Source of the DNA: Alkalinema sp. FACHB-956
GTDB lineage: Bacteria > Cyanobacteriota > Cyanobacteriia > Leptolyngbyales > Leptolyngbyaceae
Assembly: GCF_014697025.1 (NCBI RefSeq)
Contig: NZ_JACJRC010000005.1
Coordinates: 62,001 to 126,000 of the forward strand
Direction of reading: 5' to 3'
Length of the DNA: 64,000 nucleotides
The notes below the pieces were generated by a model. That model saw only the letters and a program-made list of their open reading frames with translations, was not told the DNA's origin and made no database searches. Positions 38,544-44,067 of this stretch are shown one piece after another (within the stretch, counting starts at the first letter, position 1; each line of letters opens with the position of its first letter). Both the position numbers and the translations under genes were made by a program.

Positions 38544-40871
38544 ATGGCCAAAGACGCTTCCATCCAATGTCCCAACCCATTCTGTAAAGCGCCCAACCCA
38601 GATGATCACGTCTTCTGCGATCGCTGTCAGACGTTTATTCCTCAACACTATCTTTGGGCGACGGGGGGCGGAGCGGAACATTTGGCCGTGGGAACGTTAG
38701 TTGCGGATCGCTATCGTGTCCTTGCCCCTCAGGTTTTACTGGACACGACCCCCGGACTGCTGCCAGATCTGCCCCTGGAAATTTCCCTCAAACTGGAAAC
38801 CTATTTACGACTGCTGGCCCATCGGCCCAGAACCCCCCAAGTCTACGGTATTATCCGCAACCATGACACAGAACCGATTATTCTGCTGGAAGAGGGAGGG
38901 GTCTATGGTGCACACACCTTGAGCACCACGGGAGAATCCTTAGCGGGATGCGTCATGCCAGAACTGATTGAGCGCTGGGAAACCGCATCCCATTTACAAC
39001 AAGTGAATTGGATCCTCCAGTTGGCAGAACTCTGGAAACCCCTCTCTTTAGTCAAAGCTTCGGCTACGCTGTTGCAACCAGAACTGATCAGAATTAACGG
39101 GGGAATGGTTCACCTGTTAGAAGTGCTGTACCAGCCCAATCTAGAAGTGACCCTGCCCCACCTGGGAGAATTTTGGCGAGAGCTTGCTGATACCAGTGCC
39201 AATCCTAAGTTTTGGATTAGTCTCAGCGATCGTTTGATCCAGAAGGAGATTAGTGAATTTGATCAATTAATTAATCTTCTGGATCACGAGATTAGTCAAA
39301 CTTCCCAGTCAGGGGGACGTGTTTTCATCACTACCCAAACCGATCAAGGGCCTAATCGCCAACGCAATGAAGATTCCTGCTATCCCGTTCCTGGAACATT
39401 TACTGAGTTGCCTTTGACGAATTCTGCCCAATCTTTGGTCTTGGTTTGTGACGGAATTGGTGGCCATGAAGGCGGCAATGTTGCATCCAATTTGGCGATC
39501 GAAACGGCTCTAGAAACGGTCAGTAAGAAAACAATTTCCAGTTTTGACGGGGCGAGACGGGCGCTGGCCAAGGCTATCCGCCAAGCCAATGATGCCATCT
39601 GTGCTCGGAATGACCAGGAAGAACGGACAGAACGCCAACGCATGGGAACGACGATCGTGGCGGGCTTGATCTATGGCAACCAGCTTTGTATTGCCCACAT
39701 TGGGGATAGTCGTGCCTATCGGATTACGCGCCAAGGCTGCTACCAAGTCACGATCGATGATGACATTGCATCGCGGGATGTGCGCCAGGGGTATACGCTC
39801 TACCGGGAAGCGATTCAACATTCCAGCTCGGGGGCTCTGACCCAAGCCCTTGGCATGGTTCCTTCTTCGCTGCTGTATCCCCACACGAAGCGGTTTGTGT
39901 TTGACGAGGATTGTATCTATCTTCTTTGTTCCGATGGGTTAAGTGATTTCGATCGCATTGAAGAAGCTTGGGCGCTGGAGTTACTGCCGGTGCTGGACGG
40001 CAAAGCCGACTTGACTGAAGCTTGTCAGCGGTTGCTAGAAATTGCTAATGTTCGCAATGGCCACGACAACGTGACGATAGCGCTACTACAGTATCAAGCT
40101 GCCAATCAACCGATAACGGAGCCTCTCACCCAACCCCCTAAGGCAGAATCGATTGCCGATCAGGATACCGCAGAGTTACGATCGACCAGGGTCAGTTCTC
40201 GGTTGAGAACCCGGCTAGTCAAGCCTTCTAGCCCCTCCCCTCGCCCTTGGGTGCTCTGGTTTTTGTTTCTGAGTCTAACGCTGTCGGCGGTAGGCGTAGC
40301 CTGGGTTTTGCTGGGGGGTAATACAGGACTGTTTTCCCGATCGTCCTCAGCCCCTCGTCCTGACTCTTCCCTGCGGGAATTTTCCCTAGGACAATTGATT
40401 AAGGTAAAACCGGATGCCCGATCGCCCCAGGGTCTGTCGCTCTTGCCCCAACCTACTAAACAGACCGCTGGGGGGATTCCCCTGAAAGTTGGGGAGGTAG
40501 GAGCGGGATCAATCCTCCAAGTGTTACAGGTTGAAACTTCCAGTGATGCCTCGGTCGAACCGTGGGTTAAGTTAAAGCTCTGTTCAGGGCCAGGGACACC
40601 GAATCCCACCAGTTCGGGTTCTCCCAGCCCCTCAACTTCTCCCAGTCCCACGGCCAAAGCTTCGCCTGCATCGATCGCGCCGTCCCAGCAACCCCCATCT
40701 CAAACCTCTGCTCCCGCTCCGCCAGCCGAGTCAGTGTTAGCTGGGGTGGAGGGTTGGCAGCAGGCGGGGCTGCTGAGTCGTGCTACGGAGTCCCTGCCGG
40801 TGATGCCCAACGCCTCGATCGGCGCTTGTACCCTGCCGCCTTCGTCACCTCTGCCGCCTAGCCCTCAATAG
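38544..40871 (+). CDS. Zinc-ribbon / pseudokinase / PP2C phosphatase with membrane anchor
   Basis: 775 residues. An N-terminal zinc ribbon has Cys9, 14, 25 and 28 (CPNPFC and CDRC). Residues about 47-245 follow the outline of a eukaryotic-like protein kinase (ADRYRVLAPQVLL, IILLEEGG) but lack the HRD and DFG motifs, so this looks like a dead kinase. A PP2C domain spans about 255-520: RNED at 274-277, Asp303 in VCDGIGGHEGG, GDSRAY, Asp464 in CSDGLSD and Asp508 in GHDNV, so the metal ligands are intact. A transmembrane helix at 569-590 and a Pro/Ser-rich tail follow. It should dephosphorylate Ser/Thr proteins. The CHAT-FHA gene lies 85 bases downstream. Confidence 0.85.
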   Translation: MAKDASIQCPNPFCKAPNPDDHVFCDRCQTFIPQHYLWATGGGAEHLAVGTLVADRYRVLAPQVLLDTTPGLLPDLPLEISLKLETYLRLLAHRPRTPQVYGIIRNHDTEPIILLEEGGVYGAHTLSTTGESLAGCVMPELIERWETASHLQQVNWILQLAELWKPLSLVKASATLLQPELIRINGGMVHLLEVLYQPNLEVTLPHLGEFWRELADTSANPKFWISLSDRLIQKEISEFDQLINLLDHEISQTSQSGGRVFITTQTDQGPNRQRNEDSCYPVPGTFTELPLTNSAQSLVLVCDGIGGHEGGNVASNLAIETALETVSKKTISSFDGARRALAKAIRQANDAICARNDQEERTERQRMGTTIVAGLIYGNQLCIAHIGDSRAYRITRQGCYQVTIDDDIASRDVRQGYTLYREAIQHSSSGALTQALGMVPSSLLYPHTKRFVFDEDCIYLLCSDGLSDFDRIEEAWALELLPVLDGKADLTEACQRLLEIANVRNGHDNVTIALLQYQAANQPITEPLTQPPKAESIADQDTAELRSTRVSSRLRTRLVKPSSPSPRPWVLWFLFLSLTLSAVGVAWVLLGGNTGLFSRSSSAPRPDSSLREFSLGQLIKVKPDARSPQGLSLLPQPTKQTAGGIPLKVGEVGAGSILQVLQVETSSDASVEPWVKLKLCSGPGTPNPTSSGSPSPSTSPSPTAKASPASIAPSQQPPSQTSAPAPPAESVLAGVEGWQQAGLLSRATESLPVMPNASIGACTLPPSSPLPPSPQ

Positions 40872-40956
40872 TCTCTAGTAAGTCTCTAAGTAGGCAGTTG
40901 TGGGGGGCGGATAGTTCAGTTCAGTCGTTCGGAACAAGATTTAGGAACAAGTTAGC

Positions 40957-42630
40957 ATGGGTTCTTCGGACATTCCCTGTCTCAATTTGGCCATCGATCG
41001 TCTGCGGGCGACGGGGGCAAATCACTTTGCGATCCATGTTATCCATGCCCCCTACCGGGCGGGATACGTTTTGCATGATGGTCTGTGGTCGGAGTCGCTT
41101 TCCCAGGTTTGGACTTCTTGGCAGGAAATGTTTGCGGTGCGATCGGTGCCGACGGTGCCCTTCGTCTCGGAAGCGGGACTGCCCCCCTCCAAACCCCCAG
41201 TCATGGAAACGGGGACGGCACCCTCTGGACAGGCGGTTCCCTATAGTGTGCGATTGATGCAAACTTTAGGGATTAATCTATGGCAATGGCTGTTTACTGG
41301 GCCGATCCAGACTTGTCTCAGTCAGAGTCAAGGGATTGCCATGGGCCAAAATAAGCCGTTACGGCTGCGGTTGGATATTCGGGATCCCGATTTGATTGCG
41401 GTGCCCTGGGAAATTATGCAAAGTCAGGCGGGTAAGCCCGCGATTTCCCTTGGCCAACAGGTTTTGTTCAGCCGGACAACCAGTGATGTGGAAGATTTGC
41501 CGCTGCTGCGAACGGAGCAGATGCTGAATGTGTTGCTGGTGTTGGGCCAAGATTCTGCGCCTAATCTTGATCTGAATCCTGGATCAGCGTTTAGTGACGT
41601 GACGCAGCAACATCTGGAACCCGACGATCGCCTGAAGTTGGATCAAGAGGCAGAAGCCCTCTCGCGGGTGTTGCGTAACTCGAGTCGCTTTGGCAATGCG
41701 GCACTCTGTAATGTGGATGTGTTGGTGCAACCGTCGCCCGCAGAATTGATTGCCCGCTTGGAAACGCAGCAATACAATGTTCTGTTCTATGCAGGCCATG
41801 GGATTCCGGCTCCCGATGGGGGACTCTTGTTCCTGCGATCGGATATGGCGATGAATGGTACGGAATTGGCGCAGGTATTGCGACGGGGGCGGGTCAAGCT
41901 GGCGGTGTTTAATGCTTGCTGGGGTGCGCAACCCGATCACCAGGGGGGCCAGACGATCCCCCGCAGCAGTTTGGCGGAGGTGTTGCTGCACCATGGAGTT
42001 CCGGCTGTACTCGCGATGCGGGATTCGATTACGGATCAGGAAGCGTTGGCATTTATTCAAGCATTTTCCCAGGCGTTGGCGGAACGGTTGTCGATCGACC
42101 AGGCGATGGCGGTGGCGCGGCAGAATTTGCTGACGTTGTTTAAGTTTAATCAGCAGGCTTGGACGTTGCCGGTGCTCTACATGCATCCGGAGTTTGATGG
42201 GGAGTTGATTAAACCCTTAGATGAAAGTTTGACGCAAATCCCTAGTAATCCGAGCCAATTTGGTCGCAAGATGCCGATCGCCTCACTGCGATCGTTAATC
42301 ACCTCGCGGATGTGGACGATTCGGGGTGGGCTGATGCGGGTGGGCATTAGCGAAGATAATGATCTGGTACTGCGGGGAGAACCGGGGGTGTCTCGAAAAC
42401 ATGCCGAAATTTTCTGCCGCAATGCCTTTAATGGAGATGAAGCGCTGACCTATCATTTGCGGGATTTTTCGCGCTATGGCACTTGGGTCTTGGGATCGCA
42501 GGGCTGGCAAAAGATTAATCACCAAGAGGTGCAGCTTTACCCTGGAACGCAACTCAAGTTTGGGGGATCGCAAAATTCAGTCTTGGAGTTTGTCGTGACC
42601 GATCCGGAGGGGGCTGAGTGGACGTACTAG
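40957..42630 (+). CDS. CHAT-domain protease fused to an FHA domain
   Basis: 557 residues. Residues 1-150 have no named domain (it includes LRLDIRDPDLIAVPWEIM, a segment typical before CHAT cores). The CHAT caspase-like domain has catalytic His281 (FYAGHG) and Cys321 (VFNACWGA), both intact. A forkhead-associated domain occupies about 445-545: Arg461 in MRVGISEDNDL, SRKH at 479-482, and DFSRYGTWVLG, where Tyr replaces the usual Asn. FHA domains bind phosphothreonine. A phospho-dependent protease activity is inferred. It is downstream of the PP2C gene on the same strand. There is no signal or membrane segment. Confidence 0.85.
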   Translation: MGSSDIPCLNLAIDRLRATGANHFAIHVIHAPYRAGYVLHDGLWSESLSQVWTSWQEMFAVRSVPTVPFVSEAGLPPSKPPVMETGTAPSGQAVPYSVRLMQTLGINLWQWLFTGPIQTCLSQSQGIAMGQNKPLRLRLDIRDPDLIAVPWEIMQSQAGKPAISLGQQVLFSRTTSDVEDLPLLRTEQMLNVLLVLGQDSAPNLDLNPGSAFSDVTQQHLEPDDRLKLDQEAEALSRVLRNSSRFGNAALCNVDVLVQPSPAELIARLETQQYNVLFYAGHGIPAPDGGLLFLRSDMAMNGTELAQVLRRGRVKLAVFNACWGAQPDHQGGQTIPRSSLAEVLLHHGVPAVLAMRDSITDQEALAFIQAFSQALAERLSIDQAMAVARQNLLTLFKFNQQAWTLPVLYMHPEFDGELIKPLDESLTQIPSNPSQFGRKMPIASLRSLITSRMWTIRGGLMRVGISEDNDLVLRGEPGVSRKHAEIFCRNAFNGDEALTYHLRDFSRYGTWVLGSQGWQKINHQEVQLYPGTQLKFGGSQNSVLEFVVTDPEGAEWTY

Positions 42631-43386: not shown

Positions 43387-44067
43387 ATGCCGTATCTCTG
43401 TGAATTAAATAACGGGCAACGAATTTATCTCGAGAATCATGGTCAGCAGACGACCATGACGATCGCTGCTTCCCAGCCCGGTCAGCAACAGCAATCGGGG
43501 ACTAGTTTTACCACCGGAGCCTGGGTCGCGCCGCCGGAAGCGTTTCAATTCTCGAATGGCGTGGTGATTAAACTGCGGACAGAGCAGGGCGAACTCGCGA
43601 TCCAAGTGCAGGGATCGAGTGCAGCTATGGTGCAAGGTTTTCCGGCGGGTAGCCAGGGGCAGGCGCTGCAAATGCAACAGACCGCAACTATGCCGGGAAT
43701 GCAGCCCATGCCAGAAATGAAATCTATGCCAGAAATGAAATCTATGCCAGAAATGAAATCTATGCAACCGATGCAGCCCCTGCGGATGGGGGATATGCAG
43801 ATGAGCCTGAATCCGATGGAAATGCGAATGGGGAATATGGAAATGAAAATGGGCACTCCAACTGTGTCTTCGGCAGCGGCTTCTAGTGTTGCTTCTAGCA
43901 ATGTATCAAATGTAAGTTCTAACGTTAGTTCTAATGTTAGTTCTAATGTTGTTTCTGGTAGTAATTCTACCGTGGTTCCTAATGCTAGGCGATTTTGTAC
44001 ACAGTGTGGGAATGCGGTTCAAGCCACCGATCGCTTCTGTGCCAGTTGTGGTCATCAGTTGAGCTAG
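43387..44067 (+). CDS. Methionine-rich protein with C-terminal zinc ribbon
   Basis: 226 residues. The N-terminal domain (MPYLCELNNGQRIYLENHGQ to about residue 85) is beta-rich. The centre (about 93-158) is extremely Met-rich, with MPEMKS three times and MxM pairs such as MRMGNMEMKM. A Ser/Val/Asn repeat follows (SNVSSNVSSNVSSNV). The C-terminus is a zinc ribbon with CTQC and CASC. There is no signal peptide. Met-x-Met clusters can bind Cu(I), but no evidence here shows that role. The repeat region is clearly variable DNA. Confidence 0.7.
   Translation: MPYLCELNNGQRIYLENHGQQTTMTIAASQPGQQQQSGTSFTTGAWVAPPEAFQFSNGVVIKLRTEQGELAIQVQGSSAAMVQGFPAGSQGQALQMQQTATMPGMQPMPEMKSMPEMKSMPEMKSMQPMQPLRMGDMQMSLNPMEMRMGNMEMKMGTPTVSSAAASSVASSNVSNVSSNVSSNVSSNVVSGSNSTVVPNARRFCTQCGNAVQATDRFCASCGHQLS

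Follow-up and report, generated by a model that had tools for sequence, protein, structure and literature searches.

The described systems closest to the locus reported here are three proteases and a small set of bacterial phosphatases. In Craspase, the TPR-CHAT protein Csx29 (catalytic H615/C658) cleaves Csx30, and an excerpt of PMC10028731 describes Csx29 as separase-like, with a pseudo-caspase (CHAT1) and an active caspase (CHAT2). HetF, a cyanobacterial protein with a CHAT region, is given as a divisome protein in an excerpt of PMC8406250 and as able to cleave PatU3 in an excerpt of PMC12288457. The third protease is separase. The phosphatases are Stp1, PRK14559 and PrpJ (all1731) of Anabaena, which a title cited in PMC6161253 places on the plasma membrane. 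We analysed a 64,000 nt stretch of Alkalinema sp. FACHB-956 (contig NZ_JACJRC010000005.1, positions 62,001 to 126,000; hereafter the window), in which a gene for a PP2C phosphatase precedes a gene for a protein with CHAT and FHA domains (CHAT-FHA). The analysis established the anatomy of these proteins, a conserved catalytic dyad, a predicted fold, a shared gene order and near-complete co-occurrence of CHAT-FHA with a third gene, whose product we call the partner. We tentatively read CHAT-FHA as a protease that probably cuts a dedicated partner and is modulated by the PP2C phosphatase. The two genes of the window are arranged as follows.

38544..40871, + strand: PP2C phosphatase gene, encoding 775 amino acids (aa) (open reading frame (ORF) list, Pfam)
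40872..40956, + strand: intergenic gap of 85 nt, with no terminator-like site listed within it
40957..42630, + strand: CHAT-FHA gene, encoding 557 aa (ORF list, Pfam)

Both ORFs were found where an earlier note on this DNA had placed them, on one strand and separated by the 85 nt gap, and the gene pair is a real, conserved unit. Among the 112 CHAT genomes of the class sample described below that had a listed PP2C position, 85 had PP2C on the strand of CHAT and no more than 2.5 kb upstream of it, 18 had it on another contig and nine at a different place on the contig of CHAT; 33 of 145 CHAT genomes had no listed PP2C position. The loss of the pair outside close relatives, which the note had named as grounds for abandoning its idea, was therefore not seen. 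Scans for terminators (eight sites versus 5.1 expected, standard deviation 2.2) and promoters (three versus 3.6 expected) returned nothing telling. The note's suggestion of an undescribed unit with an intact CHAT dyad agreed with the literature, in that no description of CHAT-FHA, its partner or the pair was found in titles and the starts of abstracts among the matches listed, which included few subscription papers.

The protease gene contains the following parts.

40963..42219, + strand: pseudo-caspase and active caspase unit, residues 3-421 (VIA-align of the predicted model; dyad conservation)
41797-41799 and 41917-41919, + strand: codons of the CHAT dyad, His281 and Cys321 respectively
42262..42603, + strand: FHA domain, residues 436-549 (Pfam; VIA-align Z 15.3 to EmbR 2fez)

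By sequence and fold tests CHAT-FHA is a CHAT protease, and is neither HetF nor a Craspase TPR-CHAT. Pfam assigned CHAT (PF12770) at 85.5 bits against a cut-off of 24 and FHA (PF00498) at 42.2 bits against 20.7; at E<=0.1 the only other match was a sub-threshold Peptidase_C14, with TPR unmatched. The dyad that had been read as intact in the window protein, His281 and Cys321, was invariant in all 56 aligned CHAT-FHA proteins (30/30 in a smaller alignment; the window protein is counted in both), and orthologues have thus kept the catalytic residues, contrary to a second refuting condition set by the note. In the predicted model (predicted local distance difference test (pLDDT) 77.8, predicted template modelling score (pTM) 0.66; 56 sequences), residues ~3-421 were aligned by VIA-align to Craspase TPR-CHAT (8d9f_A) with Z 22.8 and root-mean-square deviation (rmsd) 3.5 over 304 residues, and to human separase (7nj1_A) with Z 21.6 and rmsd 3.6 over 305 residues. 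Given the description of Csx29 as CHAT1 plus CHAT2, the N-terminal part of the modelled CHAT-FHA is likely the counterpart of CHAT1. In three draft genomes (loci L168, L169 and L170 in genomes G010, G354 and G008) CHAT-FHA occupied more than one frame or contained stops, reflecting either sequencing errors or early decay.

Like Craspase, CHAT-FHA combines a pseudo-caspase with an active caspase bearing a His/Cys dyad and has a dedicated partner encoded nearby, but it carries FHA in place of TPR, its ~210 aa partner has no convincing fold match, and it is widespread in a cyanobacterial class. Separase shares the double caspase fold, whereas it is eukaryotic and only ~15 % identical to the bacterial protein, and no counterpart of securin or cohesin is known here. 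HetF resembles CHAT-FHA in its CHAT region and cyanobacterial origin, but has transmembrane (TM) and TPR segments according to an excerpt of PMC8406250; the HetF model (NF045509) matched residues 97-423 at E 2.3e-46, and the score of 158.5 bits fell far below its cut-off of 1200. We infer that CHAT-FHA is proteolytically active.

CHAT-FHA was detected at E<=1e-60 in 37/146 genomes of a phylum sample and 145/291 genomes of a class sample, with full-length orthologues at 46-72 % identity. At E<=0.001, 53/58 relatives matched it; the best matches in G016, G044, G052, G053 and G056 (7e-46 or weaker) were at the level of other CHAT proteins. Many of the named carriers (L041-L120) belong to Leptolyngbya, Phormidesmis, Microcoleus, Symploca and Oscillatoria. 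These are filamentous genera, and a link of CHAT-FHA to the filamentous habit is only a lead, drawn from the nearest 80 matches, many of them metagenome-assembled genomes.

The feature most closely tied to CHAT-FHA was a gene absent from the earlier note. Neighbour clustering identified a product of ~210 aa, encoded at the +1 position on the same strand, in 68/80 named loci, these being the closest 80 of 209 and hence biased to relatives. With the start of the longest ORF taken as its end, the gap from CHAT to this third gene was 16-416 nt; the gene as called encodes 151-249 aa. In the genome of the window (G000) it lies on another contig (G000:C14:63052-63693); the best match within the window itself (25710-25273; E 0.002, 20.7 % identity) was not credible. 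In the phylum sample the third gene was present in all 37 CHAT-FHA genomes, as well as in G061 and in G172, where a CHAT-FHA fragment sits at a contig end. Across the 291 class genomes, 143 carried both genes, two CHAT-FHA only, two the third gene only and 144 neither (phi 0.97). Corresponding values for PP2C and for a gene encoding an FHA-PrsW intramembrane protease in the same genomes were 0.48 and 0.29, so that a phi of 0.97 is hard to obtain from shared ancestry alone.

Three of the four exceptions sit at contig ends, leaving G061 as the only clear split. Amongst the genomes with CHAT alone, G237 retained a piece of the third gene at a contig end, and in G313 the CHAT match stopped 138 bases before the contig end, with no third gene found on the stretch read. 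Of those with the third gene alone, it was cut by the contig start in G391, whilst G061 contained an FHA-part remnant with stops (L122, L163; G061:C16:56171-56344) between an intact PP2C gene and an intact third gene, and so represents a loss of CHAT in nature.

Physical linkage of the two genes was common and not universal. In the 143 genomes with both, the third gene was adjacent to CHAT (downstream on the same strand within 1.5 kb) in 118, on a separate contig in 21 and non-adjacent on the contig of CHAT in four; G025, G294, G145 and G039 have kept both although they lie far apart on one contig. PP2C, CHAT-FHA and the third gene stood in a row in 70 genomes. Two genomes, G016 (100 % complete) and G044 (93 %), lacked CHAT-FHA, the third gene and a close PP2C orthologue, whereas G025 and G219, from the same genera, carried all three. 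The third gene of G025 is 551 kb from CHAT; if the ancestor of G016 was arranged alike, the losses in G016 would be separate events. A long open frame suggesting a fusion of CHAT and partner in G113, the only locus checked for this, resolved into separate ORFs.

The partner appears, from its predicted model, to be a small helical protein without a convincing match to any solved structure. The model was mostly helical (pLDDT 78.8, pTM 0.59; 62 sequences). Foldseek against the PDB gave 131 matches at E<=10 and none at E<=0.001, and of 704 VIA-align rows only the best, 3fbz_A at Z 5.8, reached Z 5. A sequence profile search of the PDB returned a designed helical bundle (4uos, E 0.0001, model positions 98-134) followed by ZorA (E 0.018), both of which we take as helix likeness. 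No Pfam family exceeded its cut-off in four members scanned, no NCBIfam family at E<=0.1 occurred in more than two of 62 members, and PHROGs and PADLOC returned nothing for two. The strongest motif was ARPxAxAMR, in which Arg168, Ala171 and Arg175 were present in 62/62 sequences and Met174 in 61/62.

We tentatively favour, at somewhat less than even confidence, the reading of CHAT-FHA as a protease whose dedicated partner is probably its substrate, with modulation by PP2C. CHAT-FHA would act as a cysteine protease on its own, constructed like separase and like the protease half of Craspase TPR-CHAT, with FHA replacing the TPR repeats. It would bind the helical partner, which is encoded just downstream in most carriers and kept even when unlinked, and upon activation would make a single cut in it, much in the way that Csx29 cleaves Csx30, which is encoded with it. 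The FHA domain may dock an activator or position the protease, in the window species probably without reading phosphothreonine. In many lineages the zinc-ribbon PP2C, probably membrane-anchored, would set the phosphorylation state of a component further up the pathway, without being essential to the unit. A cut near Arg175 of the partner is conceivable.

A somewhat less probable alternative is that the third protein is a securin-like inhibitor, a chaperone or an adaptor for the folding, silencing or targeting of CHAT-FHA, with the true substrate elsewhere. Its near-obligate co-occurrence and its conservation suit a stoichiometric binding partner. Securin is the inhibitor of separase. Separase, a fold match of CHAT-FHA, has been solved in complex with securin, judging from structure titles. 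The third gene of G061 is intact even though CHAT-FHA has decayed there, which would be odd for a pure regulator of CHAT, although this is a single case and the decay may be recent. The strict pairing, a fold shared with dedicated-substrate enzymes and the intact partner ORF of G061 together lead us to favour, weakly, a substrate over an inhibitor.

Several observations weigh against the substrate reading. The conserved ARPxAxAMR motif ends a predicted helix at Arg175, with a loop next, and may be purely structural. According to an excerpt of PMC11106740, Craspase orthologues cut at a non-conserved site, so conservation in the partner marks no cleavage site. In G061, where CHAT has decayed, the intact partner ORF carries Met174 changed to Thr, so that the motif reads ATR. 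The co-occurrence was also counted over the 291 genomes without a species tree, and the genomes are not independent samples. The substitution in G061 itself says little, since Met174 is replaced by Leu in G017, which has a full-length CHAT-FHA, in G010, where the CHAT frames are shifted, and in G172. Because these genomes retain CHAT-FHA sequence, the case for Met174 as a CHAT-dependent residue is weaker.

The contribution of the phosphatase to the favoured reading depends on its own architecture, which comprises the following parts.

38568..38627, + strand: zinc ribbon, residues 9-28 (Cys 9, 14, 25 and 28)
38643..39329, + strand: region of unassigned fold, residues 34-262, earlier called 'kinase-like' (conserved; kinase homology undetected)
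39330..40103, + strand: PP2C catalytic domain, residues ~263-520 (Pfam 43.8 bits; motif conservation in 36 proteins)
40260..40316, + strand: probable TM segment, residues 573-591 (19 residues with a Kyte-Doolittle mean of 2.14)

The intact PP2C metal-binding motifs proposed in the earlier note were confirmed by PP2C_2 at 43.8 bits against a Pfam cut-off of 24 (38544-40871 product) and by the blocks DGIGGH, GDSRAY, SDGLSD and NGHDN, conserved across 36 aligned proteins. Its N-terminal zinc ribbon also held, with Cys 9, 14, 25 and 28 invariant in 31/31 aligned N-termini, all of which matched the DZR model when E up to 10 was allowed (weakly in the window protein, E 0.015). The kinase-like identity of residues 34-262 found no such support. 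Compared with 13 kinase domains from the same genome, this region gave an hhalign probability of 0.8 %, or 1.3 % when query and target were swapped; both values fell among those of four negative controls (0.1, 0.4, 0.6 and 1.4 %). Pfam kinase-domain models matched 0/31 N-termini, under HMMER filters that remove most matches above E 0.1. We therefore do not assign it as a Hanks-type pseudokinase; a deeply diverged pseudokinase is possible because the best hhalign alignment runs collinear with kinase.

The phosphatase is probably membrane-anchored, judging from hydrophobicity profiles: a segment of >=1.6 followed the PP2C domain in 35/36 aligned proteins. In the window protein, no segment ahead of the domain end exceeded 1.15, versus 2.14 at residues 573-591; at least one of the 36 proteins also reached 1.67 before the domain end. 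The C-terminal part of the phosphatase is Pro/Ser-rich. A shorter paralogue with 38 % identity (L159; G000:C4:229958-231787) has the same zinc ribbon and middle region and, on visual inspection, a C-terminal hydrophobic segment as well. Stp1, PRK14559 and PrpJ resemble the window protein in the PP2C domain and the probable TM segment, but it scored below the curated NCBIfam cut-offs of Stp1 and PRK14559 (169 of 230 bits and 249 of 374 bits, respectively). The likeness to PrpJ is one of description, and the window protein may or may not be its counterpart; HltA differs in being of GAF-SpoIIE type (excerpt of PMC9430166).

The earlier note had combined these parts into a phospho-gated switch, in which FHA binding to a phosphothreonine partner would tether the protease and PP2C would free or reset it. 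We consider this unlikely. Phosphothreonine-binding FHA domains usually bear Arg and Asn at two canonical positions. The FHA fold that the note recognised is clearly present in the window protein, but Ile464 and Tyr507 occupy those positions, and the expected phosphothreonine residues are missing. Among the 56 aligned CHAT-FHA proteins, the retention of Arg in 38 speaks for the switch, as does the PP2C gene adjacent in 85/112 genomes, whereas 18 lack Arg and only four have Asn, each together with Arg; Ser479 and His482 are present in all 56. Retained Arg showed no link to PP2C adjacency (45 loci, p = 0.33), and the proposed phosphothreonine tether is unsupported. The companion kinase fared no better: 31 kinase domains exceeded the Pfam cut-off in the genome and none lay on the contig of the pair.

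PP2C is also too loosely associated with CHAT to be an obligate partner, its phi of 0.48 being only moderate against that of the third gene. At E<=1e-98, a threshold chosen by judgement to divide close orthologues from paralogues, 53 genomes had PP2C and no CHAT, and 24 had CHAT and no close PP2C; these 24, of which 11 belong to one genus (g147), may hold diverged copies. Where named loci had at least 3 kb of upstream sequence (64/80), PP2C adjoined CHAT in 35 and did not in 29. A third alternative, which we regard as improbable, is that PP2C and CHAT-FHA are neighbours by inherited order only and that CHAT-FHA is a HetF-like division or differentiation protease. The HetF model match, the known roles of HetF and the 27/112 genomes with PP2C elsewhere (some on other contigs perhaps through assembly breaks) are in its favour, but order and strand are kept across several families and the HetF score is far below its cut-off. 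An anti-phage defence module is very improbable: CHAT domains occur in defence and PADLOC returned a weak SAVED_CHAT match (E 0.00095), but four proteins scanned gave no further match, and the orthologue identities and stable order look vertical and core-like, an impression formed without a tree.

Other genes adjoin the unit. The FHA-PrsW gene in the genome of the window (L121; G000:C14:61303-62661) is convergent with and adjoins the third gene, and in 27/80 named loci it was found at +2 to +4 on the opposite strand. In all 27 the FHA Arg, Ser, His and Asn residues and the PrsW EExxK motif were kept, and the third gene of these loci thus lies between two proteases with FHA domains. A further gene, which reads like a peptide deformylase, followed in 24/80 loci. 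Downstream of the pair in the window, 43387-44067 encodes a 226 aa protein with a C-terminal zinc ribbon and Met-rich, MPEMKS-like repeats. A small conserved protein of ~110-127 aa was encoded upstream on the same strand in 19/80 named loci (e.g. L053; L122:6667-7050).

A broader and more doubtful extension of the favoured reading is that of a Craspase free of CRISPR, in which a separase-type protease, chromosomal and docked through FHA, has one client, a new helical protein, with input from a membrane PP2C and sometimes FHA-PrsW as a second FHA-carrying protease at its side. Together these would form a conserved proteolytic signalling pathway in many cyanobacteria, perhaps chiefly filamentous ones. 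A partner is known for few bacterial CHAT proteases, and comparative genomics names one here, for a protease present in roughly half of the genomes sampled from a cyanobacterial class. Two proteins would suffice for direct tests of its activity, its substrate and its trigger. Should the partner prove to be the substrate, separase-like single-cut signalling would be old and common in cyanobacteria, extending beyond CRISPR or the cell cycle.

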